Origin: a virus | IMG/VR virus record: IMGVR_UViG_3300025098_000123 | Location: 1 to 37,445 of that record | DNA: 37,445 nt | Direction: 5' to 3' (one strand) | Shown here: piece by piece, positions 6,385 through 37,445 of the stretch | How the letters are laid out: each line of letters starts with the position of its first letter | How positions within the stretch are numbered: position 1 is the first letter of the stretch | The notes under the pieces: model-generated | Told to the model about the DNA's origin: nothing | Databases searched by the model: none | The model's input: the letters and a program-made list of their open reading frames with translations, nothing else | Position numbers and translations under genes: made by a program

Positions 6385-8631
6385 ATGGTTATTTATAGCA
6401 ACAATCTTCATGAAAAACTTCAGGGTATTGCAATAAGTAGAGATTACTTAAAGTACAATACTCCGTTTTGTGATATAGTTGACGATCCTGATTTTCAATT
6501 AGATATTGACTTAGCTGTTGGATATAACAACGCAATTAATGGTAATCTTGCCGTAGCTGAAAACTTCGTACAGAATTTAGTTCTTAACAGCGGGCAGTTA
6601 GACTGGTCTACTTTAGATTTTTATACATCTAAAATTGTTAATAATCCAATCTTTGACTCAATAGTACGCGATATTAAAAGTCGATTTGATAATCCTGAAC
6701 TTTACTCAGACGGGTATCAGGAATCTCTTAATGATCAGCTAAAGGATTGTCTTAATTCACCATGTAATTTGTTTTTAGATACTAGTGATAGTATTGGTAG
6801 AATGGCTCAAGCTGCTTCTACTAAATCTGCTGCTAATACTTTCGGAGTAGGAGATCTAAAAGATACTTTTACTAATATGATCGGTGAACTTGATCAGGCG
6901 GTTTTTAATAAAATTCCTGCACTATTTCAAGATGGGTTTGTCGAGGTTACTCAACTGGCCAACAAGGCTTGGACTAATACTCAAGCTGTGCTAGCAGGTA
7001 AAAAGAACCTATCAGAACTTTCTAAGTTAGCACAAGGAGGACAATCCCTTAGAAACACAGATAAAGTCTATAGATATACTCCTGATATTAAATCTTATTT
7101 TGATTTTAACACTACTGGGTCTGCAATCCTTAATAAGGTTAAAGAAAATCTAGGAGGGTGCTTTGACAAATATCAGAATAAGTATCGATACAATCCATAC
7201 ATTGATAACACATCGTTTCCATCTGGGACACATCCAGTGTATGTTAATGGTGAAACTATTGAAGCAGATGGAGCTAATAAAGTTCAAAGGGTAACTGACA
7301 ATAATAAGAATATGAGAGGGCAGACTGGCAACTTTTCCAGTTTACCACCATATGATAATACCCCTGTTAATGGTAAGGGATACTCTGACGGTAAAGTAGC
7401 AATTTCAAAGACATTTACTTTACAATCAAAGAAACGGGGTGTAACATCTCATTACTCTGTTTTTGCTGGTCTTGTAGACTATGGGGAGAAACGAATTTGG
7501 TATGAAGATTATTCTGCTTTAGCTGGTGATAAAATGACTTTGAAAGGTATTAGTAATCTAGGTGAAAATACATACAGGCTTGGTGCATCATATATGAGTT
7601 CTGGTGGTTTAACCGAGTTAGGAAAAGCTATTAAAGGGCAGTTATCAGATAGTGATAAAAGGTCTATTGGTCTTAATAATGTGACTGGTGCTATTGCGGT
7701 GGGTTGGAAGCATGATCTTACTGACACGGGTATGGAAAATCTTTACAATACACCTAAATCTGGTATTGTTAATGATGGTGTTGCTATAAGTCAGACTCTA
7801 TTTAGACGGTTTACAAATGATCCAACCGTTACACCTTTAAGTAAGAACTACAAAACTCCCTTACAACTTAGTAATGAATTTTTTGCTGCAATGAGAGTAC
7901 CTAATGGTAAGTGGTATTACTATAAAGTTATTGACTGGAATGGTCAAAAAGAATCTAACGTTGATATGACAGTTGGTGCATATCAACATTTTATGAGAGC
8001 AAATGACTTAGGTGAACTTGGTGGAGCTAGCAAAGGTGTGCCTATTAGTGATACTGGATGGACTCGTATTAAAAAGATTGCGCATGATAATCTTGGTACT
8101 ATTGAGGTCAAGCTTTGTCAAGGTAGTATTGACAATATTAAAGCGCAAATGGGTGATATGCCTGAAGAGCTAGTTGAAACTAACCCTAATGTTAGTTATG
8201 CTTTGAATGGAACTCGTAATAAACCTATTCAACCAAAATTAGCTAATATGATTAATGCAGCTAGTGCAAAATCTGGCTATAAGATAGTTGTCTATTCAGG
8301 TGGTCAAGTCGCAGCACGCGATGGTGGCCGTAACGGTGTAAACCGAACAGGTTCAAAGAGGCATGATGATGGTTGGGCTGCTGATATAAGGGTGTATGAT
8401 GGAAGTACTAGATTAAGTGCAGAAAATCCAAACCATTTTGATAAGCTCTATCAATTTTCTAAAATACTTAAGAGTGTTGGTATTGAGAGTATTGGAGCTG
8501 GTCCAGGTTATATGGCAGGAAACTTACACATTGATATCGCTATTAGTAATGGTAGGAGTGGTGCACAAGCTACAAAATGGGGTGTTAATGGTAGAAGTGC
8601 TAATACACCACGGTGGTTAAGAAGTGTTTAA
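6385..8631 (+). CDS. Baseplate hub protein with C-terminal M15-type peptidase (gp5 functional analogue)
   Basis: The product is 748 residues. The first 250 residues are mixed helical and resemble no domain I can name; the middle (about 280-600) is strand-rich. The last 130 residues look like a D-Ala-D-Ala carboxypeptidase/M15 zinc peptidase. YKIVVYSGG (632-640) corresponds to the 'SGYR' strand; SKRHDDGWAAD gives H660 and D667 with H-x6-D spacing; GNLHIDIA gives H715 and D717. These are the usual zinc and catalytic ligands. Placed after gp48 and gp53, it is probably the tail-tip enzyme that opens peptidoglycan during DNA entry, where T4 uses a gp5 lysozyme. The gene ends convergently with the minus-strand gene, sharing bases 8629-8630 in opposing stop codons. 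Confidence 0.65.
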   Translation: MVIYSNNLHEKLQGIAISRDYLKYNTPFCDIVDDPDFQLDIDLAVGYNNAINGNLAVAENFVQNLVLNSGQLDWSTLDFYTSKIVNNPIFDSIVRDIKSRFDNPELYSDGYQESLNDQLKDCLNSPCNLFLDTSDSIGRMAQAASTKSAANTFGVGDLKDTFTNMIGELDQAVFNKIPALFQDGFVEVTQLANKAWTNTQAVLAGKKNLSELSKLAQGGQSLRNTDKVYRYTPDIKSYFDFNTTGSAILNKVKENLGGCFDKYQNKYRYNPYIDNTSFPSGTHPVYVNGETIEADGANKVQRVTDNNKNMRGQTGNFSSLPPYDNTPVNGKGYSDGKVAISKTFTLQSKKRGVTSHYSVFAGLVDYGEKRIWYEDYSALAGDKMTLKGISNLGENTYRLGASYMSSGGLTELGKAIKGQLSDSDKRSIGLNNVTGAIAVGWKHDLTDTGMENLYNTPKSGIVNDGVAISQTLFRRFTNDPTVTPLSKNYKTPLQLSNEFFAAMRVPNGKWYYYKVIDWNGQKESNVDMTVGAYQHFMRANDLGELGGASKGVPISDTGWTRIKKIAHDNLGTIEVKLCQGSIDNIKAQMGDMPEELVETNPNVSYALNGTRNKPIQPKLANMINAASAKSGYKIVVYSGGQVAARDGGRNGVNRTGSKRHDDGWAADIRVYDGSTRLSAENPNHFDKLYQFSKILKSVGIESIGAGPGYMAGNLHIDIAISNGRSGAQATKWGVNGRSANTPRWLRSV

Positions 8632-12337: not shown

Positions 12338-13078
12338 ATGGTAATGACGAAAAACATCGTATTGACAATGATAGCTGCAGCAGGTATTGCCTCTGCAGGA
12401 AGTGCTTCAGCTGATAGTATCGCAATTCTACCTGATAGTGTTGCGACAGGACTATCTTATGGAGTTGTAGGAACATATAGTACCCAAGATATTTGGCGTG
12501 GCCAGAAACAGGGTGATGACGATTTCCGTCTAGGGGTTACTGCTGAGTTAGGACTCTTCGGAGTACCGACTAATGCAAAACTCGCATGGAGTGAAAACGA
12601 CTTGCAGAATGAGTTTGAATTCAGTCTAGGTACTGCTCGTGACTTCACTCTCCCAGTAGTGGGTGATGTAGTTGGTCATGTAACATTTAACTACTACTCA
12701 GAAGGTACTGATGTAGTTGGTGATGTTGAGTCAGAGCTCGGTGTCGGATTCGGCAAAGATCTTGGATTAGCTAGTGTATCACTTACCCAGTTTATTGCTG
12801 TTGAAGGTGATAATAGCGGATATGGTGAGATTGGAGCTAACTTTGGAGAGGTATATGAAGGTATTTCACTTACCGGTACCCTTGGTTACGTGCTGGATGA
12901 TTTTAAAGCTACTCATGTTGAGTTGACTGCTGATCTTCCTAACTTACCATTTGAAGTTCTTGATACTGCATTTACTCCGTTCTTAAAAGGGGTATATACT
13001 TTTGATGGTCGTGAAGGTATTTGGGCTAATGATGGAGCTGAGTTTATCGGCGGAATTAGTCTCTCACGTTCGTTTTAA
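12338..13078 (+). CDS. Phage-encoded outer-membrane beta-barrel (porin-like, resembles TorF/Gcw_chp family)
   Basis: The product is 246 residues (244 from the ATG at 12344, which I favour as the start because of the promoter position). A clear signal peptide, MTKNIVLTMIAAAGIASAG followed by SASA-D, has n, h and c regions with a type I cleavage site. The mature protein alternates strands and short turns, with STQDIWRGQKQGDDDFRLGV near its start, recalling the 'YxxRG-S' strand of TorF-like putative porins, and many aromatic-flanked strands. It ends ISLSRSF with a terminal Phe, the usual beta-barrel assembly signal. It has a perfect late box, so it is probably made late in infection. Changing host permeability, masking a receptor, or helping lysis are possible roles; none is shown here. 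Confidence 0.75.
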   Translation: MVMTKNIVLTMIAAAGIASAGSASADSIAILPDSVATGLSYGVVGTYSTQDIWRGQKQGDDDFRLGVTAELGLFGVPTNAKLAWSENDLQNEFEFSLGTARDFTLPVVGDVVGHVTFNYYSEGTDVVGDVESELGVGFGKDLGLASVSLTQFIAVEGDNSGYGEIGANFGEVYEGISLTGTLGYVLDDFKATHVELTADLPNLPFEVLDTAFTPFLKGVYTFDGREGIWANDGAEFIGGISLSRSF

Positions 13079-13661: not shown

Positions 13662-13690
13662 AAAAAAAGCCGGGCTTTGCCCGGCTTTTT
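13662..13690. terminator. Strong bidirectional rho-independent terminator
   Basis: GCCGGGC-TTT-GCCCGGC (13669-13685) is flanked by seven A on the left and five T on the right, giving a terminator on both strands. It separates the convergent genes 13168-13641 (+) and 13707-16040 (-). Confidence 0.9.
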
Positions 13691-13706: not shown

Positions 13707-16040
13707 TTAGCAACAGCAGTTACAATAGCATGTACTGCAGCTACAACAAGTACTACAGCAACTAGTGTTGTAATTACAACAATAGGTACAGCAGCTACCA
13801 CAGATAGTAGCGGAGGATGATGGGCAGCTACAACAATAGGTACTGCAGCTGCAACTATAACTACCGCAGATGGAAGCAGATGGTGTTGGTGATGGGCAGC
13901 TACCACATATAGTTATAGAAGGTGTTGGTGATGGTGACGGTGAATAGCTACTTTGGATAGTAGCAGATGGTGTTGGTGAGGACGAATAGCTACTTTGGAT
14001 AGTAGCAGATGGTGTTGGGTCTAGATCCTCTTTTAAATTAACTATCTGCTTTGCGAAATCTAGCTTTACAGCTTTAGATGTTCCAGCTAAACCTAAATAA
14101 ACGTTATCGCCAACTGTAATAGCAGCTGTTGTAAATCCTGTACCAATGCTCATAATACCAGAACCTTCTTCAATAGTAGCTTTACCATCCATAAATTCCT
14201 CACTATAATCTCTCCATTGGATTTCGTATGTGTTAGGATTAATTCTGAAACATTTTGTATCAGCCCAGAATGCACTATAGAGCCAACCGTCAGGAGCTAA
14301 GTATCCATTAAAGTTTTTATTTTTATTAGCCACTGCGAGATAATCTGCCGGTAAGTCAACTTCCTCATAAGAATCATCTACACAATCTATAATTAAAATC
14401 GTCTTCCCAGTTCTAGGTAAGCAAAATACTTTGTTAACACTCTCAACGTAAGTAGCACCTACATATTTAACATCAAATCCAGATACGCCCGATTTAATTG
14501 GGTCACCTGTTAATATTGAAACTTCACCATTAGTATCTATCTTGAGAATTTTTTGACTCAATGCTGGTGGCATATAGATGTTACCTTCTTTATCTGCTGC
14601 AGCTCCCCAAACATGACCATAAAACCCGGGTTGTGGTGGTGTGATTACACCAGTCTCGCCAGTATTTGTATTATATGTATAAATTTTTAAAGTCTTAGTA
14701 TAAGATGGCATATAGATAATACCATTAGCTCCTTCTGCTCCGGAGCGTACTTGAGGTATACCTGAAAACTTCTCTTCTAATGTAAGCTTACCTGTCTTTC
14801 TCTCTAATTTAGCCAACGAACTAGAATAAGCCGGTAGGTAATATGTATAACCATCAGATGCATGAACATTACCAATAAAACCTTTATAACCAACTTCTCT
14901 CTTACTTATATTATCTTGTACGGTGTCTGTAGTAATATGATAGTCAGACTTATAGCCTAGTGAATGAATAACACCAGAGTCGTCTAAACCTAATGTACGA
15001 GTTTTAGTAAGATTACCTACGATTTCACCTTCTAAATATTTGAATGTAGGCCAATGTTCGGTTAAGTCAGGAGATAAATCTGCTTCAGTAACCGTATAGT
15101 TAGTTGTCACACCTGCCTGCTTATCAGCGGTCGTGATCATTCCGTTAATGTCTGAAATGTAATTTGCGATAGGAGTACCAGCTCCTGCACCTCCAAATGT
15201 CCAAACAGTTACAAGCACCGGCTCTCCTTTGAAGATTAAAAATGCTGGATTACCACTATCACCTTTAATCTTACTCTCATTGAAAATAAGTCTTTTGGAA
15301 TCTGTAGGCGTTCTCATCCGACCACCGTTAGCCCAATCTATAATAAGAGCTTTTTCCTCTTGGTCAAATCCAATACAAGGTATCTTGCTCTTATATATAT
15401 TATCAAAGTACTTACTGTAATCGCTAGGCAATACCGAGTAGGGTTTTATAGTTGAAGGAAGATCACTGTCTAAGGTATAAATTGTTAAGTCTGGATTGTA
15501 GTTCTTACATTCTGGATGTCGTACCTTTCCTACCACAGTACGGTCATGCACAATACCGGCATCTTTTTCTACAAATCTAACTACAGTACCTACAGAATAC
15601 TCATAATGAGCAGCACCTATAACATGTCTTGGAGTTATTAGAGTTCCTGCTTTCTTGTGACCTCCGCTACTATTCCAAGGAGATAGTCCTGTGAGGTCCA
15701 AGTCTGCACACCACAAATCTTCGTTTCTCATATACCCACGAGTCGCATGATCCTGAGAGATGAATACCTTACCATTAACTTCCATACTCATCGACTCATC
15801 TAGCATGTCATCAATTTGTTTGGCGCAATGAAGAGAAATGGATGGCGGTTGAGTTGTATCTAGAGGTAAAACAGACAAACTTGGACTTGGTGCTGGAGGA
15901 ATACTAGCTGGCGTAGCTGATGGAGATGGTGTAGCTGATGGAGATGGCGTAGCTGATGGAGATGGTGTAGCTGATGGAGATGGCGTAGCTGACGGGGATG
16001 GTGTAGCTGACGGGGTAGGAGTTATAGGCTTTGTACTCAT
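13707..16040 (-). CDS. Virion-type serine protease / beta-propeller protein with repeat stalk and Cys-rich tail
   Basis: The product is 777 residues from ATG 16040, which lies 5 bases after a perfect TATAAATA box. Residues 8-46 are PSPSATP repeats. A chymotrypsin-like domain follows: LITPRHVIGAAHYE gives H145, NPDLTIYTLD gives D184 and KGDSGNPAF gives S262, the complete triad in order. Residues about 330-705 hold at least five blade-like repeats of the type 'DG-xxYLP...xLxKLDxxTGxxx', suggesting a beta-propeller. The C-terminus drifts from TIQSSYSSSPTPSA repeats into residues 710-777, where 23 of 68 residues are cysteine. No signal peptide is seen. It is likely a tail-attached adhesin or surface-cleaving enzyme, but a virion location is inferred. 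Confidence 0.7.
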   Translation of the reverse strand: MSTKPITPTPSATPSPSATPSPSATPSPSATPSPSATPSPSATPASIPPAPSPSLSVLPLDTTQPPSISLHCAKQIDDMLDESMSMEVNGKVFISQDHATRGYMRNEDLWCADLDLTGLSPWNSSGGHKKAGTLITPRHVIGAAHYEYSVGTVVRFVEKDAGIVHDRTVVGKVRHPECKNYNPDLTIYTLDSDLPSTIKPYSVLPSDYSKYFDNIYKSKIPCIGFDQEEKALIIDWANGGRMRTPTDSKRLIFNESKIKGDSGNPAFLIFKGEPVLVTVWTFGGAGAGTPIANYISDINGMITTADKQAGVTTNYTVTEADLSPDLTEHWPTFKYLEGEIVGNLTKTRTLGLDDSGVIHSLGYKSDYHITTDTVQDNISKREVGYKGFIGNVHASDGYTYYLPAYSSSLAKLERKTGKLTLEEKFSGIPQVRSGAEGANGIIYMPSYTKTLKIYTYNTNTGETGVITPPQPGFYGHVWGAAADKEGNIYMPPALSQKILKIDTNGEVSILTGDPIKSGVSGFDVKYVGATYVESVNKVFCLPRTGKTILIIDCVDDSYEEVDLPADYLAVANKNKNFNGYLAPDGWLYSAFWADTKCFRINPNTYEIQWRDYSEEFMDGKATIEEGSGIMSIGTGFTTAAITVGDNVYLGLAGTSKAVKLDFAKQIVNLKEDLDPTPSATIQSSYSSSPTPSATIQSSYSPSPSPTPSITICGSCPSPTPSASICGSYSCSCSTYCCSCPSSSATICGSCCTYCCNYNTSCCSTCCSCSTCYCNCCC
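13710..13913 (-). repeat. Cys-rich degenerate repeat tail
   Basis: This stretch encodes the last 68 residues of the protease-propeller protein, 23 of them Cys, with ICGSC, ICGSY and TYCC repeated. The plus-strand DNA shows a duplicated segment ACAACAATAGGTAC 54 bases apart (13776 and 13830), in frame, so the tail probably grew by tandem duplication. Confidence 0.6.
15903..16019 (-). repeat. PSPSATP tandem repeats (N-terminal stalk)
   Basis: Repeats of a 7-residue unit with period 21 bases or a near multiple occur at the start of the protease-propeller gene. The same motif family recurs in the plus-strand adhesin genes at 35.8-37.4 kb. Confidence 0.85.
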
Positions 16041-16045
16041 ACCCT

Positions 16046-16053
16046 TATTTATA
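16046..16053 (-). promoter_or_regulatory. Perfect late promoter box, TATAAATA (minus strand)
   Basis: The box ends 5 bases before the ATG at 16040, and selects this start over an in-frame ATG at 16103. Confidence 0.7.
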
Positions 16054-16089
16054 TCTCTTAGCAGGTTGAGCCAATATTTCCAATATTTG

Positions 16090-16137
16090 CTACTCCAAAA
16101 CATTTTTAATACCCTTCCATTTATCAGCTTTAACCAT
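16090..16137 (-). CDS. Possible 15-codon leader ORF ahead of the protease gene
   Basis: A second perfect TATAAATA box (16143-16150) is followed by exactly 5 bases and ATG. The frame encodes MVKADKWKGIKNVLE and then TAG. It overlaps, in another frame, the upstream extension of the protease gene. It could be a true micropeptide, a translational leader, or a remnant of a longer gene. It is called only because the promoter-to-start spacing matches that of real genes. Confidence 0.3.
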   Translation of the reverse strand: MVKADKWKGIKNVLE

Positions 16138-16156: not shown

Positions 16157-16849
16157 CTATATAATATCCTCTAGTTCTGTAGCATATTTTAATCGCTTTT
16201 GAGTGTGTGGTGTACCAGCCTTTTCGTAACGCTTTAAGAAAATCATAGTAGCGTCTTTAACATTATCTGTTTGATTTAACATCTGCTTCACCTTCTTATA
16301 TTCAGGATGTCTCTCCATTTCATATAAGATAAAATCTATTTGAGTGTCTAAATCACTCCAATCTGTACCTTTTTTCTTAGCGAATTTAGTTAAGTTAATA
16401 GGGTCTGTATCATATCTACCACCTTTTTCCCATTGGGCTAGACCTCGGCCCGGTCCCCCACTTAGTTGTTTAATGGCAGGGTCTAAATTAGATTCTGCTT
16501 TTAAGTTTGCTACAACCCCTATGGCAGCAGTTTTTGTTAGCCCTCCAGCAGTTAATCTATTAACGATATATTTTGTAGATCCTTTAATTGGAGCATCATC
16601 AGGCTCAGAATTAATTTCAGTAGGTGGTTTTTCGATTTTGAGCTTTTGCAATATTTCCGATGCGACCTTATCAAATTTAGGAGAAGATATTAATTCATCA
16701 GCCTTTTCTACAGCATCTATTTTTTGTTCTATTGGCTCTGGCCTCTCTTTAAGAGCCTTGAGAATATAATCAGTTTCATAAGCAGTCGCACCTAAAGATA
16801 ATAACCCCATAAGTATCTCTTTATAGCCTTCGTCAAACTGCTCAGTCAT
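16157..16849 (-). CDS. Phage lysozyme-fold peptidoglycan hydrolase
   Basis: The product is 230 residues. The first 85 residues are helical and charged, with no signal peptide. Residues about 92-228 look like the 'phage tail lysozyme' family (Phage_lysozyme2). The domain holds IVNRLTAGGLTKTAAIGVVANLKAESNLDP with the candidate catalytic E119, then GPGRGLAQWEKGGRYD, a helix with TQIDFILYEMERHPEY and a final MIFLKRYEKAG. This fold cleaves glycan strands. It may act as the endolysin or be packaged in the virion; the missing signal and the neighbouring structural genes leave both open. It is the second murein hydrolase of the window beside the M15 domain in the hub gene. No late box is evident; it may be transcribed from promoters further upstream on the minus strand. 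Confidence 0.7.
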   Translation of the reverse strand: MTEQFDEGYKEILMGLLSLGATAYETDYILKALKERPEPIEQKIDAVEKADELISSPKFDKVASEILQKLKIEKPPTEINSEPDDAPIKGSTKYIVNRLTAGGLTKTAAIGVVANLKAESNLDPAIKQLSGGPGRGLAQWEKGGRYDTDPINLTKFAKKKGTDWSDLDTQIDFILYEMERHPEYKKVKQMLNQTDNVKDATMIFLKRYEKAGTPHTQKRLKYATELEDII

Positions 16850-17086: not shown

Positions 17087-17590
17087 TCATTCAGGCAGAT
17101 AAAGATCAGCTACATAACTCTCTTTCTCTAAAGTAAGCTCTGTCTCCGTAAGTTTACCATCTCCTTTATCAGTCTTATTAGATAAATTTTCTTCATCTTG
17201 CTCAACTTCTTTAGGAGTAATATTAACATCATCTTTACGTTTTTGAGCATCACATGTAGATGGTAAGTTAATACCGAAATCAACAGGCTCTCCGAGGTGG
17301 CAAGGTACATCAACCGTTCCAACATAGCGACCACCTCCATGATCAACAGACAATGTTAATTTATCACCCTCAGGGCTAATACCTCTTACACGAAGATGTA
17401 ACCCGGTATCAATAAAATCATCAATAATTTCTTTTACATTAGTTGGGATACTTTTGTAAACTTCATCACTTTTAAAATTATCATTAAACTTGAACACGTC
17501 ATTCTGCTGAAATCCGCTTTGGATACCACGTGCGGGGTATTTTGCCATGTAATATTCAAACAGATGGAGAAATTTTTTGTCTTTAGCCAT
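17087..17590 (-). CDS. Conserved-looking phage protein of unknown function
   Basis: With ATG at 17590 the product is 167 residues, opening MAKDKKFLHLFEYYMAKYPARG. The segment LFEYYMAKYPARGIQSGFQ followed by DVFKFNDNFK resembles a protein I recall from marine T4-like phages, but no function is known. The C-terminal third is acidic and likely unstructured. The start is chosen from the late box exactly 5 bases upstream (17596-17603); a longer TTG-initiated frame to 17626 would run into the divergent gp25 promoter. The gene is divergent from gp25, and its neighbourhood suggests a virion or assembly role. Confidence 0.6.
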   Translation of the reverse strand: MAKDKKFLHLFEYYMAKYPARGIQSGFQQNDVFKFNDNFKSDEVYKSIPTNVKEIIDDFIDTGLHLRVRGISPEGDKLTLSVDHGGGRYVGTVDVPCHLGEPVDFGINLPSTCDAQKRKDDVNITPKEVEQDEENLSNKTDKGDGKLTETELTLEKESYVADLYLPE

Positions 17591-31738: not shown

Positions 31739-32761
31739 ATGCCAGATATTGAAATAGTAAAATTAAAATTAAGAAGAGGTACTGATACTCAGAGGCAGGC
31801 TATTACTCTTGAGCAAGGTGAGCTTGGTTATACAACTGATGCAAAGCGAGTTTGGGTAGGAGATGGATTTACAATTGGTGGTGTTAATGTGGGTAATGTC
31901 GCACATGCACCAGTAACTGCAGGTAGTAGAACAGATCTCGATTATGTAATCAATGGGGATTTAGTATATGATAATAATTTACTATACCAACTCTCTGGTA
32001 CATATGCAGATAATTTATCATCATGGGCATTTATTGGTTCACAAACGGATACATCAACTATTGAATATAACGCAAGTAATCAACTACATATAGTTGATAA
32101 CGGTATCGGTATTGCACAATTAAGTAGTAACGTCGTTCGTGAAAATGGTGGGTTATTATATACTTCTTCCGGACTTTCAGCAAATGTTGATGGTTCTACT
32201 ATGACTGTTAATTCTAATACAGGTCAACTAAGTGTTATTGGTGGTACCATTAGTACTAGTAATGTAGGTAATGGATTAAGTGGTGGTGGTGGAGATCCCC
32301 TTGGTGTTTATACTACTGATTCGTTTACTTATACAGGCACTAAATTAGAGTTAAGAAATGCTCCAGCAAATACAGTTGATGCTGGAGCTATTCAGAATTC
32401 TGCCCTTGGTAATGGTCTTGAAAAGAGTGGATCTACTATACGCCTTGAAAATATTGGAGGTGCTACTATTAAACCGTTCAACTCAGCTGTTTATGATAGT
32501 ACTGGTAGGGTTACCTCAACAACAACTGCAATTGAGCAGAATCTTTCAGGTGCATCCACTTCCGGAACTAGTCAACTCTTCTTCGGTTCATTAGATGAAT
32601 CAAATCCCGGAGCCAGTGGTGAAACTGTTGTAAATGTTCTCTCTGCTAATAGCGATCGATCATCAGCAGTTACTATATCTTTATCATCTGCAGGCTTTGT
32701 TCAAATTGCCTCAGGCATTCTTGGAGACTTTGCAATTCCAGTATTTAAAATACCAACTTAA
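31739..32761 (+). CDS. Tail fibre/adhesin with N-terminal 'RRGT' docking domain
   Basis: The product is 340 residues. Residues 7-52, with LKLRRGTDTQRQAITLEQGE, LGYTTDAKRVWVGDG and IGGVNVGN, match the short N-terminal domain found in many fibre and tropism-type proteins of T4-like marine phages, which docks the fibre. The rest is a chain of strands rich in Ser, Gly and Asn (IVRENGGLLYTSSGLSANVDG, and a SVIGGTISTSNVGNGL segment), typical of trimeric fibre shafts, and it ends with a short GDFAIPVFKIPT tip. The shared N-terminus with the following gene shows that the two adhesins were assembled from a common docking module. No late box is visible upstream. Confidence 0.75.
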   Translation: MPDIEIVKLKLRRGTDTQRQAITLEQGELGYTTDAKRVWVGDGFTIGGVNVGNVAHAPVTAGSRTDLDYVINGDLVYDNNLLYQLSGTYADNLSSWAFIGSQTDTSTIEYNASNQLHIVDNGIGIAQLSSNVVRENGGLLYTSSGLSANVDGSTMTVNSNTGQLSVIGGTISTSNVGNGLSGGGGDPLGVYTTDSFTYTGTKLELRNAPANTVDAGAIQNSALGNGLEKSGSTIRLENIGGATIKPFNSAVYDSTGRVTSTTTAIEQNLSGASTSGTSQLFFGSLDESNPGASGETVVNVLSANSDRSSAVTISLSSAGFVQIASGILGDFAIPVFKIPT

Positions 32762-32770
32762 TTTAATAAA

Positions 32771-34393
32771 ATGGCTAAAAAAATCGAAATTCTCGAAAAT
32801 ACACTTCTCAAATTACTCGTTCGTCGTGGTGACAATGGAGATCGCGTTAATGTTACCCTATCGGAAGGTGAGCTAGGATACACTACTGATGGTAAACGTC
32901 TTTTTGTTGGAGATGGTCAAACTGCAGGTGGTATAGTAGTAGGTAATAAATGGAAAGGATCAGTTACTGATGTTGCTACTATTACAGATGCTATCAACGG
33001 AGATTATGCATTTGAATCTACAAGCAATATTTTTTACGTCCGTACAGAGACAGAATGGCTATCTGCTGGTCGTTTTTTAGAAGCTGGAGACACTACTATC
33101 GATATTAATGATAGCAATGGTACTATATCTGTTGGAACTATTTCAGGAGCTAACGTCTCCGTTAATGCTTTAGGTAATTCAATTGATCTCAGTAGTACCA
33201 AAATTTCGTTAAGTAGCACGCAAATTAAAACAGATAGAGTTTCTGCTCATTCAGTTTCACACCTTAAATTACCACAGAATATTAACATCAACAACGTTGA
33301 TTATCAATTTCCTGTTGGCGGTCTAGGTGGTGCTAATGTATTTTTACGTTCAGATGCTAATGGTAATCTTCGATGGACTACTCCTGAAGCAAATGCTACA
33401 GTATATTTTAACTCTTCATCTGTTATTCCAGTTGGAACTATTATACCTGTTGCTTCGGGGTCGAGTGTACCGTCGGGATACTTGCTTTGCAACGGTCAAT
33501 CGGTAGCAGGTGCTTTCTTTCGTGATTTATCTGCTGTTATTGGCTCACAATATGGTGGTAATGATGTAACTATGAATTTACCTGATTACGAAAACTCGGT
33601 TTTATATGGAGTTAACTCAAACCCATCTGGTAGTACTGAACACCCCTTGAATACCAGCACTACTACCGGTTTAAGTGCTAAAGCTGTAACATTCTTTATT
33701 AAAGCTTTACCTGATAATGTTGCTACACCAGCTTTTACTCTTAGTGGTAACTTAAAAGCATCAACAAATGGTACAGCAGTAACAGAAGGTGCGTCTTTTG
33801 ATCCTTTTGCAAATAATGTTGTTATCTCTACACCAGTACCTGGAGTTGCAGTGTTTGACACAACTACTGCTGTGCTATCAACATTTACGACAAAAGCAAC
33901 ATATACAAAATTCTGGATTACAGGGTCTGGTGCTAAAGGTGGTACACGTACAGGTGGTGCTGCTGCTACAGTTACAGGAGTTCTTTCAGCTCCTATCGGT
34001 ACTGACGTTAAATACTTTGTTGCTCCTGGTATTACAACAAGTAATACAGATGGCGAAGCTTCTTATATTTCTGTTGGTGGCACAGAACTTGCAAGATCAG
34101 TTGGTGCTGAATTTCAAACTAGTGGGTTAGTACCAGATGGTACTACTAATACCGGTAATCTTTCAACAAATGGTACAGGTCTTGCAGGAGGTGAGTCAGC
34201 TTACATTCTCGGTGGTCATGTTATTGAAGGTGGTCGTGGTGGTTGGGATACTGACGGTAGCGGAAACGAAGAAGTTGGTAGTACCGCTTCTTTCTGGGGC
34301 GCTGATTCGGTTGCAGGTGCTGGTGGAGGTGGACATGCTGAGGTATCAAATGATACTGCTGACGGACTTGTTAAATTTGAATGGGGCATGTAA
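32771..34393 (+). CDS. Tail fibre/adhesin with tail collar domain and glycine-rich tip
   Basis: The product is 540 residues. Residues 15-58, with LVRRGDNGDRVNVTLSEGE, LGYTTDGKRLFVGDG and GGIVVGN, copy the docking domain of the preceding gene. The middle has a phage tail collar domain: IPVGTIIPVASGSSVPSGYL, LCNGQSVAGAFFRDL, GSQYGGNDVTMNLPDY (about 217-272). The C-terminal 160 residues are Gly/Thr/Ser-rich (KFWITGSGAKGGTRTGGAAA, GGHVIEGGRGGWDTDGSG, AGAGGGGHAEVS), recalling gp38-like adhesins in which Gly-rich loops make up the variable receptor-binding tip. The gene follows the previous one by 9 bases and is probably a host-range determinant. Confidence 0.75.
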   Translation: MAKKIEILENTLLKLLVRRGDNGDRVNVTLSEGELGYTTDGKRLFVGDGQTAGGIVVGNKWKGSVTDVATITDAINGDYAFESTSNIFYVRTETEWLSAGRFLEAGDTTIDINDSNGTISVGTISGANVSVNALGNSIDLSSTKISLSSTQIKTDRVSAHSVSHLKLPQNININNVDYQFPVGGLGGANVFLRSDANGNLRWTTPEANATVYFNSSSVIPVGTIIPVASGSSVPSGYLLCNGQSVAGAFFRDLSAVIGSQYGGNDVTMNLPDYENSVLYGVNSNPSGSTEHPLNTSTTTGLSAKAVTFFIKALPDNVATPAFTLSGNLKASTNGTAVTEGASFDPFANNVVISTPVPGVAVFDTTTAVLSTFTTKATYTKFWITGSGAKGGTRTGGAAATVTGVLSAPIGTDVKYFVAPGITTSNTDGEASYISVGGTELARSVGAEFQTSGLVPDGTTNTGNLSTNGTGLAGGESAYILGGHVIEGGRGGWDTDGSGNEEVGSTASFWGADSVAGAGGGGHAEVSNDTADGLVKFEWGM

Positions 34394-34442: not shown

Positions 34443-36860
34443 ATGGATTATCCAACAGATCTACCTCTATCTGCTGTAGCTGTGCAGGTGTTTGAGGAAG
34501 GCATGTCACCTCAGTATGATATTACATGGTCATTTACTTATGAGTTAAGTGCACATACTGTTGGAGATCAATTTGGATATTGCATGTTTTTGCAAGATGC
34601 AAGCTTTCCTCTGAGTGGTGGTGGTGTTGGCCCTGATCTTGGATTTACTGGTAATACTTTACTATCCGCCTCACTTTCTTCACAACCTCTTAATAAGCCG
34701 ATATTAGGTATCGGATTTGATAGTCTTGGTGTTTTTGCATCAGAACTCACGTATACTGATGGACCTACTCGTACAGGGGTATCATATGAACCTAATAGTA
34801 TTACGTTAAGAGATAAGAACTTTAATATAATTACAACACAAGCAATTAGTGCCTTTGATTTAGTTAGTCCAGGTAAGAAAACAATAAGAGCACGTCTTGG
34901 AAACTATGGTCGTAGAGTTGCTGTTGATTATAAGAATGAAACTGATACATTCTATACTCAAATACTTACACAGGAACTAACTGGCATTGATGTATACCCA
35001 GGCTCTCGATATAGACCTGGTGTTTCGTTTGTTAAACCACTTTCTAGCCCTAATACAAACGGTATTATTGTAACAACTGGCTTTCACGTTGAAGGTAATA
35101 GTATTGAAACAGATGAAAGTGAGTTTACCTTTAACCCGTTAACAGCTTTCGCAGTTAATAATACGACTACCGGGGAGGTTCCTCAAGGAACACCGGATTT
35201 TGAAGATAGACCTACATTACCGTTTTTAGGTATGGAGCCAAATATAGGGTGTCCGGACAATACATGTGATTTAACAACTCTCGGTTCGACTTATCCAGGT
35301 ATCTTTGTAAATTCTATTTTATATGGAATGTCTGCTTATATTGGAGATATTGATTTGAAGTGGAGTACACCAGTAAGCCCATATCGCTTTGTATATACTT
35401 ATGATGATATTATACGCTTAGATACAGGGTTTGTTGGTGACGAAACTTGGAATTATGGTGGTGCACTAAGAAGTAGCTTTAATACTGGACTAGAAAATTC
35501 TCTAAAATATACAAGTTATCCTCCGATCAGCCTCGCTCCTGATGGATATCCCTATGTCAATAGTTCTTTAACTACGGCAACAAGCTCTATTTATAAAGAT
35601 ACTGATACATCCCGTCTTAAGGTTACTGTATATGCTCCAACTTCAGCAGCTGATTGGGAAGTATTTGTCGGATGCCCGTTTTATACACTTTCATGTGGAA
35701 TAACTGATGAATATTTATGTGATGTTTCGCGTAGATTTGAACAACTGCGACGCGTTGTACTCAGTCCTATTAATCCTTTCCCTGAATGTTCCGTTCCCGT
35801 CACTCCTAGCGTGACGCCTTCCGTTTCACCTACTCCATCAGTATCAGTCACACCTTCAGTTTCAATCACACCCTCTGTTTCAATTACGCCTAGTATAAGT
35901 ATAACACCATCCGTAACTGTATCCGTTACACCGTCTGTAGGAACATCCTCTACACCTAGCGTTTCACTTACACCTAGTGCTTCGGTTACACCTTCCCCCT
36001 CATCTACTCCTTCGGCGAGCGCCACACCTTCTCCTTCTGCTACTCCCTCAGCGAGTGCTACACCTTCACCTTCAGCTACACCTTCACCGTCAGCTACACC
36101 GTCGCCATCGGCTACACCTTCTCCGTCAGCTACTCCAGTAGCCTCACCTACTCCATCAGCTACACCTCCTGCTACTCCTCCAACATCACCAACACCTTCA
36201 GCTTCCCCACCCGCTTCACCAGCAGCTTCACCAACACCTTCAGCTTCCCCACCTGCTTCACCAGCAGCTTCACCAACACCTTCAGCTTCCCCACCTGCTT
36301 CACCAGCAGTTTCTCCACCGGCTTCACCACCAACGTCACCAACACCTTCAGCTTCTCCACCGAGCTCGCCTGCAGCTTCACCAACACCATCAGCTACTCC
36401 ACCAGCTTCTGCTACTCCACCAGCTTCCGCGACACCTTCACCATCAGCTACACCTTCACCATCAGCTACACCTTCTCCGTCAGCAACGCCATCACCATCA
36501 GCTACACCATCCCCATCAGCTACACCATCCCCATCAGCTACACCACCAGCCTCACCACCACCAACTGTTACGCCTTCGGTAGGAACATCGGCGACACCAC
36601 AAGCTTCCGCAACACCTTCACCATCGGCTACTCCGTCAGCGAGCGCCACACCTTCGCCTTCAGCTACACCTTCACCTTCAACTACACCGTCGCCATCGGC
36701 TACACCTTCTCCGTCAGCTACACCTTCACCTTCAGCTACACCTTCCCCGTCAGTTACACCACCAGCTTCCGCGACACCTTCACCATCGGCTACCCCGTCT
36801 CCTTCCGCTACCCCGTCTCCTTCCGCTACTCCACCAGCCTCACCACCTACACCTTCATAG
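34443..36860 (+). CDS. Lectin-like adhesin with a long Pro/Ser/Thr/Ala repeat stalk
   Basis: The product is 805 residues. Residues 1 to about 450 form a folded beta-rich part; an early region FGYCMFLQDASFPLSGGG, then VGPDLGF, then GIGFDSLGVFAS, is reminiscent of legume/L-type lectin folds ('F...GGGxGPGLGF...EFD'). Cysteines cluster late (CPDNTCDLTT, FVGCPFYTLSCG). From residue about 452 to the end the chain is low complexity: first TPSVSVTPSVSITPS units, then PSPSATPSPSATP, then PTPSASPPASPAA. The stalk is about 354 residues with no other structure. It may act as a long flexible, possibly glycosylated spacer. Its own late box and position downstream of the fibre genes point to a virion adhesin. 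Confidence 0.65.
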   Translation: MDYPTDLPLSAVAVQVFEEGMSPQYDITWSFTYELSAHTVGDQFGYCMFLQDASFPLSGGGVGPDLGFTGNTLLSASLSSQPLNKPILGIGFDSLGVFASELTYTDGPTRTGVSYEPNSITLRDKNFNIITTQAISAFDLVSPGKKTIRARLGNYGRRVAVDYKNETDTFYTQILTQELTGIDVYPGSRYRPGVSFVKPLSSPNTNGIIVTTGFHVEGNSIETDESEFTFNPLTAFAVNNTTTGEVPQGTPDFEDRPTLPFLGMEPNIGCPDNTCDLTTLGSTYPGIFVNSILYGMSAYIGDIDLKWSTPVSPYRFVYTYDDIIRLDTGFVGDETWNYGGALRSSFNTGLENSLKYTSYPPISLAPDGYPYVNSSLTTATSSIYKDTDTSRLKVTVYAPTSAADWEVFVGCPFYTLSCGITDEYLCDVSRRFEQLRRVVLSPINPFPECSVPVTPSVTPSVSPTPSVSVTPSVSITPSVSITPSISITPSVTVSVTPSVGTSSTPSVSLTPSASVTPSPSSTPSASATPSPSATPSASATPSPSATPSPSATPSPSATPSPSATPVASPTPSATPPATPPTSPTPSASPPASPAASPTPSASPPASPAASPTPSASPPASPAVSPPASPPTSPTPSASPPSSPAASPTPSATPPASATPPASATPSPSATPSPSATPSPSATPSPSATPSPSATPSPSATPPASPPPTVTPSVGTSATPQASATPSPSATPSASATPSPSATPSPSTTPSPSATPSPSATPSPSATPSPSVTPPASATPSPSATPSPSATPSPSATPPASPPTPS
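35797..36859 (+). repeat. Pro/Ser/Thr/Ala tandem repeat region
   Basis: Three sub-blocks follow one another: TPSVS(V/I) repeats of 18 bases, PSPSATP repeats and SPPASPAASPTPSA repeats of 42 bases. The codons of the same residues vary freely, so the protein repeat is kept while the DNA differs. Confidence 0.9.
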
Positions 36861-36890: not shown

Positions 36891-37445
36891 ATGTCTTCAC
36901 AAACACCGACACCTACTCCCTCGGCTACTCCTTCTCCTTCACCGACACCTAGCCCCTCGGCTACTCCTTCTCCTTCACCAACACCTAGCCCCTCGGCTAC
37001 CCCTTCTCCCTCGACTACCCCTTCATCCTCGGCTACTCCTTCTCCTTCGACTACTCCTTCATCCTCGGCTACTCCATCGGTAAGTGTTACACCTTCAGTA
37101 TCGGTTACTCCTTCCGTATCGGTTACCCCGAGTGTGAGCGTGACACCTTCTGTAAGTGTTACCCCCTCTGTCTCCGTTACCCCGAGTGTGAGCGTGACAC
37201 CTTCTGTAAGTGTTACACCATCAGTATCGGTTACTCCATCTGTAAGTGTTACACCTTCTGTATCGGTTACTCCTTCTGTTAGTGTTACTCCAAGTGTATC
37301 TGTAACACCTTCTGTAAGCGTTACACCTTCTGTATCTATTACACCTTCTGTATCGGTTACTCCTTCTGTTAGTGTTACTCCAAGTGTATCTGTAACACCT
37401 TCTGTAAGCGTTACACCTTCTGTATCTGTAACACCTTCTGTAAGT
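36891..37445 (+). CDS. Repeat protein, partial (runs off the window)
   Basis: An ATG at 36891 opens a frame with no stop before the end. It begins MSSQTPTPTPSATPSPSPTP, continues with PSPSATPSPSTTPSSS, and from residue about 62 is a nearly perfect chain of TPSVSV units. It follows the lectin-like gene after a 30-base gap, has no recognisable late box (only TATTAAATTTC upstream) and encodes no folded domain before the edge. It could be a stalk whose folded domain lies beyond the window, or an independent low-complexity protein. Confidence 0.7.
   Translation, partial: MSSQTPTPTPSATPSPSPTPSPSATPSPSPTPSPSATPSPSTTPSSSATPSPSTTPSSSATPSVSVTPSVSVTPSVSVTPSVSVTPSVSVTPSVSVTPSVSVTPSVSVTPSVSVTPSVSVTPSVSVTPSVSVTPSVSVTPSVSVTPSVSITPSVSVTPSVSVTPSVSVTPSVSVTPSVSVTPSVS
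36903..37445 (+). repeat. Hierarchical TPSVSV repeat array
   Basis: The base unit is 18 bases (6 residues). Larger identical blocks recur at multiples of it: a block around 37122 recurs at 37176 (54 bases), and one at 37261 recurs at 37351 (90 bases). This is the footprint of recent in-frame unequal crossing-over or slippage. Confidence 0.85.

Follow-up and report, generated by a model that had tools for sequence, protein, structure and literature searches.

The window, a 37-kb IMG/VR fragment (37,445 nt), comes from a marine T4-like myovirus and carries on its minus strand a gene in which a serine protease domain is joined to a beta-propeller. We lean towards reading its product as a virion-borne, cell-surface-directed serine protease equipped with a surface-binding propeller, in a phage whose probable host is a planctomycete of the Pirellulaceae. 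The phage is only distantly related to cyanophages, to which its gp6-like protein is 24–32% identical.

Layout of the protein and its two domains

The open reading frame encodes 798 residues, and its features are collected in Table 1. The first-pass annotation had started the protein at M22 (16040), but by extending the gene 63 bases in the 5′ direction a better start was obtained at 16103, because sister phages retain this upstream start (MFWSSKYWKYWLNLLRDINKGM; in them MFWGSKFLKYWLKLLRDINKGM, MFWGSRYLLKVLRDINKGM and further variants), and it is preceded by a GGAAGGG-type ribosome-binding site. With the longer N-terminus, the residues previously numbered H145, D184 and S262 become H166, D205 and S283. 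No hydrophobic stretch was found there (maximal 11-residue Kyte-Doolittle mean of −0.14), in agreement with the earlier statement that a signal peptide is lacking. The two near-identical contigs L009 and L010 encode 804 instead of 798 residues, the difference being a single 18-bp PSPSATP unit, and the protease and propeller of the window protein are connected by a short linker only. The C-terminal Cys-rich tail, possibly a disulfide or metal-linked anchor, has counterparts in L049 and L083–L087, which likewise consist of ICGSCPSSSAT repeats and, where complete, end in CC, CCC or CCCC before a terminator. A frameshift origin of this tail was rejected, since the tails of the sister phages are in-frame and end in CC/CCC before a similar terminator.

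Table 1. Positions of the protease-propeller gene, its parts and the conserved or tail-fibre genes of the window
Feature	Position (nt)	Strand	Basis or remark
Whole gene: N-helix, PSPSATP linker, serine protease, beta-propeller, Cys-rich repeat tail	13707..16103	−	ORF list; same-slot homologues in sister phages
N-terminal 21-residue segment MFWSSKYWKYWLNLLRDINKG	16041..16103	−	Kept in sister phages; not a signal peptide
PSPSATP stalk, 18-bp tandem array, 5.7 copies	15909..16010	−	One unit more in L009/L010
Serine protease domain, residues 96–343 (H166, D205, S283)	15075..15818	−	PDB and profile searches, invariant triad
His166 codon (RHVIGAAH)	15606..15608	−	
Asp205 codon (PDLTIYTL)	15489..15491	−	
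Ser283 codon (GDSGNP)	15255..15257	−	
Beta-propeller domain, residues 351–683, probably seven blades	14055..15053	−	AF2 model, Foldseek
C-terminal repeat tail, 115 aa, 23 Cys, ending CYCNCCC	13710..14054	−	Sister phages likewise have Cys-rich tails
Strong intrinsic terminator, 12-pair	13664..13690	−	Directly 3′ of the gene
Phage_lysozyme2 gene (PF18013, E=5e-33)	16157..16849	−	Directly upstream; conserved lineage neighbour
Conserved upstream gene, function not assigned	17087..17587	−	Same lineage
Mtd_N and Collar tail-fibre genes	31739..34393	+	Adjoin 34443–36860
Tail-fibre-module protein with PSPSATP-type repeats	34443..36860	+	No protease domain here

When the window protease was searched as a single sequence, salmon trypsin was the top PDB match (E=0.004), its His and Ser blocks aligning with those of the window domain, and trypsins and other S1 peptidases again came first with profiles built from relatives (E=0.001, and E=0.003 for a profile of 38 diverse members). 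The ungapped HMMER alignment places D205 two residues away from trypsin D102, and the assignment of Asp205 therefore relies on its D-hydrophobic motif and its invariance. Among 75 aligned sequences, whose rows are not independent and whose identities reach down to 23–40%, His, Asp and Ser were invariant in 74/74, 75/75 and 74/74 of the relatives covering each site; in the 38 diverse members, the corresponding columns H71, D110 and S188 were invariant as well. Homologues lacking the triad had been named beforehand as a point to check, and none of the covered relatives lacks H, D or S. The pairwise dN/dS of 0.10–0.23 shows that the domain is under strong purifying selection. The set of triad motifs recognized in the first-pass annotation is thus real, and we propose, from these sequence comparisons, that H166, D205 and S283 form the catalytic triad of an S1-like serine protease.

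The family resembles the S1 (chymotrypsin/trypsin, PF00089) peptidases in the H-D-S order, in the xxAAH, D-hydrophobic and GDSGxP motifs and in its best PDB and Pfam matches, but differs from them in its extra conserved PRH and DQEEK blocks and its phage-tail setting, and its fold is a prediction from sequence. The window domain gave no Pfam match at E≤10 and no PHROG match, and because the PF00089 gathering score was not reached, it was filed as S1-like and not as a curated member. Among the 38 diverse members, PF00089 was the commonest Pfam match (7/38, best E=1.8e-4), and L124 scored 15 bits against the Pfam cut-off of 20.6; no Pfam or PHROG family model covers either the protease or the propeller. 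Six residues before Ser283, a site that by counting corresponds to trypsin Asp189, the window has Ser and close relatives mostly Asn. The absence of Asp at this position means that Arg/Lys specificity is not implied, so that the earlier term "trypsin-like" is kept for the fold class and dropped for specificity. A pseudo-protease that serves solely as a binding scaffold would fit a family with no known activity and an AF2 protease model of pLDDT 34; the latter was obtained with an alignment of only 15 close relatives, which probably explains its low score, while an invariant H, D and S in all covered relatives down to 23–40% identity and a dN/dS of about 0.1 speak against a scaffold, which we regard as very improbable.

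The propeller claimed in the first-pass annotation was borne out by the AF2 model of residues 351–683 (pLDDT 89, pTM 0.89), for which Foldseek returned 1598 PDB matches at E≤0.001, the top ones being seven-bladed; the modelled domain probably has seven blades as well, a number taken from the grouping of DSSP strands. The closest solved folds are YncE, virginiamycin B lyase (TM 0.71–0.72 by query, 0.78–0.80 by target) and WDR5, and the closest propellers by sequence are of the NHL type, with PknD at E=0.008–0.03 in profile searches. Compared with these NHL-type and virginiamycin B lyase-like propellers (PknD sensor, 2z2n, YncE), to which it is similar with TM values up to 0.72/0.80 and with NHL as the best profile matches, the window propeller is only 12–14% identical and has no Pfam NHL match. 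The prominence of virginiamycin B lyase among the top Foldseek matches could be taken to mean that the propeller is itself the enzyme, of lyase or lactonase type, with the protease as its accessory. We consider this improbable, given the low identity, the similar scores of the binding propellers WDR5 and G-beta, and the alignment of 21 propellers, in which two His alone are invariant. The best viral structural match (TMq 0.78) was the Hokovirus "collagen triple helix repeat" protein A0A1V0SG21, which, judged from its collagen-repeat name, apparently combines a repeat stalk with a propeller; it differs in being 17% identical, in belonging to a giant virus of eukaryotes and in showing no protease.

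The protease family and its tail-fibre context

The first-pass annotation had considered a trypsin-like triad unusual for a phage protein, but relatives of the window protease at 35–100% identity, as found with a profile including diverged members, occur at at least 120 IMG/VR places, 80 of which were kept. Among 50,697 deposited phage records, one match to the family was found, UOF78081.1 of podovirus ct3Et533 (MW202510.1). It shares the protease domain (28% identity to the L103 domain) and its gene lies near structural and internal-virion-protein genes, but it has another N-terminal domain and no propeller and is annotated as hypothetical.

Within the family, the protease stands alone or follows a domain of some 150 residues in proteins of about 400 residues, and it is also found after collagen-like GPQGKT tail-fibre repeats (L142), within a 1156-residue FN3 protein (L155) and, in L152, joined to a long tail fibre distal subunit N-terminus (phrog_1699, E=7e-11). 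For 66 selected neighbouring genes of protease relatives, Mtd_N was the commonest Pfam family (9), and many matches were to tail-fibre, structural, T4 gp9/10 and tail-sheath-stabiliser proteins. A large phage contig (L165:4539–8359) holds two protease-family genes (one of 403 aa, the other at 7064–8359) with one gene between them, the start of the 7064–8359 product matching the L170 family protein.

The lineage of the window itself provides the closest link. In sister phages, homologues of the tail-fibre-module protein begin with a serine protease domain (L103, L104); in the two sister phages L050 and L083, the gene directly after Collar/Mtd_N encodes a protein of 970–982 aa whose N-terminal protease is 31–35% identical to that of the window and whose remainder is 89% identical to the window product of 34443–36860, which starts where the protease ends. 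It is mainly this protease-bearing fibre-module protein of L050/L083 that supports a virion location. The enzyme domain is thus seen within tail or fibre proteins of relatives (the fibre N-terminus in L152, the fibre-module protein in L103/L104), and the window protein itself is tied to tail fibres only through its lineage and through the PSPSATP repeat, which also occurs in this phage's tail-fibre-module genes. The virion association suggested in the first-pass annotation is accordingly upheld as an argument from relatives, in which the protease is fused to or lies beside tail-fibre proteins. A 76-kb sister-phage record with the fibre gene yielded no protease to the A4/A6 profiles, so that the domain appears not to be essential to the lineage, as far as this possibly incomplete record can tell. 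The tail-fibre module closes with genes (window 36891–37445, L103:3–2474) that consist nearly entirely of TPSVSV/TPSVTPS repeats, in L103 over 824 residues without other sequence.

One gene slot in three phage lineages

Protease and propeller had initially been taken as one fixed protein; they are in fact independent cassettes, found alone, adjacent or fused, that share one gene slot across three lineages of unrelated phages. In most same-slot homologues of the window lineage, the protease is absent and the N-terminal segment runs directly into the propeller (L049, L050, L083–L087). Two further phage types, the first carrying holin, CHAP endolysin and lambda-like minor tail genes and the second sulfotransferases, glycosyltransferases and an amidase, have either the propeller or the protease in the slot gene, usually after a helix and repeats. 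The two cassettes are adjacent genes in L105, and L021 has a protease with the remnant of a propeller behind it. A diverged propeller (profile E=1.8e-23), SxE-repeat linkers and a protease make up the 866-residue product of L156:3333–5930(+), an independent fusion of diverged modules in the order opposite to that of the window. This repeated joining argues that protease and propeller may act on the same structure.

The tree groups the window protease with the proteases from the two further lineages (support 99/97 for this clade) and sets the fibre-module copies (34% identity) apart on a deep branch of their own. This indicates that the window's own lineage (A) gained the domain at least twice, and a move within the lineage from the fibre gene to the window gene was rejected on these grounds. 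The repeats VGIGSTS and TSAEYTSAE were considered as genome-wide recombination linkers and dismissed, since outside the window lineage they are mostly limited to the slot gene. A short linker, TPY[KQ]FG[YH][TI]A[EKG]Y, adjoins the protease or the propeller in varied contexts (L021, L022, L035, L156, and L090 as TPFKFGHIAEY). In lineage B (L029, L042, L044, L051, L070, L075), Core-2/I-branching (PF02485), Galactosyl_T (PF01762), Glyco_transf_25 and Sulfotransfer_2 genes surround a protein with Ser/Thr-rich tandem repeats, a linker that possibly bears mucin-like glycosylation; a GT31 frame and the repeat protein are fused in L029 and separate in L028. Near the same slot but in different phage lineages, window 12338–13078(+) and L077:5123–5812(+) encode exported proteins with signal peptides, apparently unrelated to each other and both probably beta-barrel outer-membrane-like.

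The modular arrangement also bears on the proposal, raised in the first-pass annotation, of a self-processing adhesin, in which the protease would cut its own chain at the protease-propeller junction or in the stalk to mature a tail protein. The direct connection of the two domains in the window protein by a short linker would suit such a role, but the protease occurs alone, N-terminally and C-terminally with no shared cleavage site or common cleavage neighbourhood, and its order is reversed in L156; we therefore give self-processing little credence.

The slot has a further property that has to be weighed, in that the window gene lies on the strand opposite to the tail genes and beside a lysozyme gene. 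The slot comes after the Phage_lysozyme2 gene in the window lineage, follows a holin-like/CHAP endolysin cassette in the second and has an amidase endolysin nearby in the third. Because lysozyme, holin or endolysin genes are thus close by in all three lineages, the chief rival to a virion-borne enzyme is a factor acting at lysis or in the infected cell, one that would be released or would act on the envelope late and aid lysis or dispersal from a lysis-associated accessory locus. The signal-peptide-like N-termini of chromosomal relatives of both domains would also be compatible with it. However, the phage forms are without a signal peptide, the protease family overall tracks tail-fibre genes and the sister phages have a fibre-module copy, and we hold such a lysis-time role to be unlikely, while assigning it more weight than the other alternatives.

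Host, proposed role and significance

The host is probably a planctomycete of the Pirellulaceae, as suggested by two kinds of sequence evidence. First, the propeller is present on Pirellulaceae MAG contigs, with two complete copies 73–74% identical to that of the window; some of these contigs also carry ychF or rpsI. Second, genes inserted in sister phages at the same slot, between the tail lysozyme and propeller genes, encode DUF1549/DUF1553 (L085:4993–7933) and DUF1501 (L046:6584–7780) proteins, families typical of Planctomycetes and relatives. The Pirellulaceae propellers have a strongly hydrophobic, signal-peptide-like N-terminus, and protease relatives with signal-peptide-like N-termini were found in 2 of 392 Planctomycetota genomes; both domains are taken as functioning outside the cytoplasm. 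With the propeller present in 3/241 Pirellulaceae genomes, a native planctomycete housekeeping gene is unlikely. Near the propeller carriers in Pirellulaceae, no protease was found in 3 genomes. A match on a 3-kb Flavobacteriaceae MAG contig (L093) that also holds a phage-neighbour gene was set aside as a mis-binned phage contig. On the Pirellulaceae contig L095 (4657–5289 and 7803–9950), a signal-peptide segment and its 522-bp downstream block are present twice, in one copy with the propeller between them and in the other without it, the latter resembling an empty-site copy.

For the favoured virion-borne protease, we infer the catalytic activity, the presence in the virion of this phage, the target and the parts played by helix and tail. 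The protein would be made late, without a signal peptide, and attached at the tail or baseplate region, with the helix at its N-terminus or its Cys-rich tail as candidate anchors. During adsorption, the propeller would bind a surface molecule, the PSPSATP stalk would provide reach, and the protease would cut a host surface protein, much as depolymerases on tailspikes cut polysaccharide. The proposed logic, an enzyme together with a binding domain on tail fibres, is shared with the tailspike and tail-fibre depolymerases, which the window protein presumably resembles in function; it differs in an unrelated fold and in a substrate that would be protein and not polysaccharide.

Known tail-borne enzymes cut mainly sugars or peptidoglycan. 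Neither the catalytic type nor the propeller fold is new; in the literature searched, that outside subscription, no prior description was found of tail-borne serine proteases, planctomycete phages or propeller tail proteins; new with respect to that literature are a large tail-associated S1-like family with no library model and the exchange of cassettes with a host-shared propeller. As a more speculative generalization, about which we are somewhat doubtful, tail-borne S1-like proteases may constitute a large undescribed family of "protein depolymerases" directed at the protein surfaces of bacteria with few cultured phages (Planctomycetota and kin), repeatedly paired with a host-exchanged propeller, the binding and cutting cassettes being swapped in one slot behind peptide-repeat linkers. 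At least 120 tail-associated serine proteases, with one in 50,697 deposited phage records, would make up a so far unrecognized class of infection enzymes and would give a handle on the phages of Planctomycetes. The swapping of protease, propeller or both in one slot of three phage types makes the question of surface targets testable, namely whether different cassettes direct these phages to different host surface proteins.
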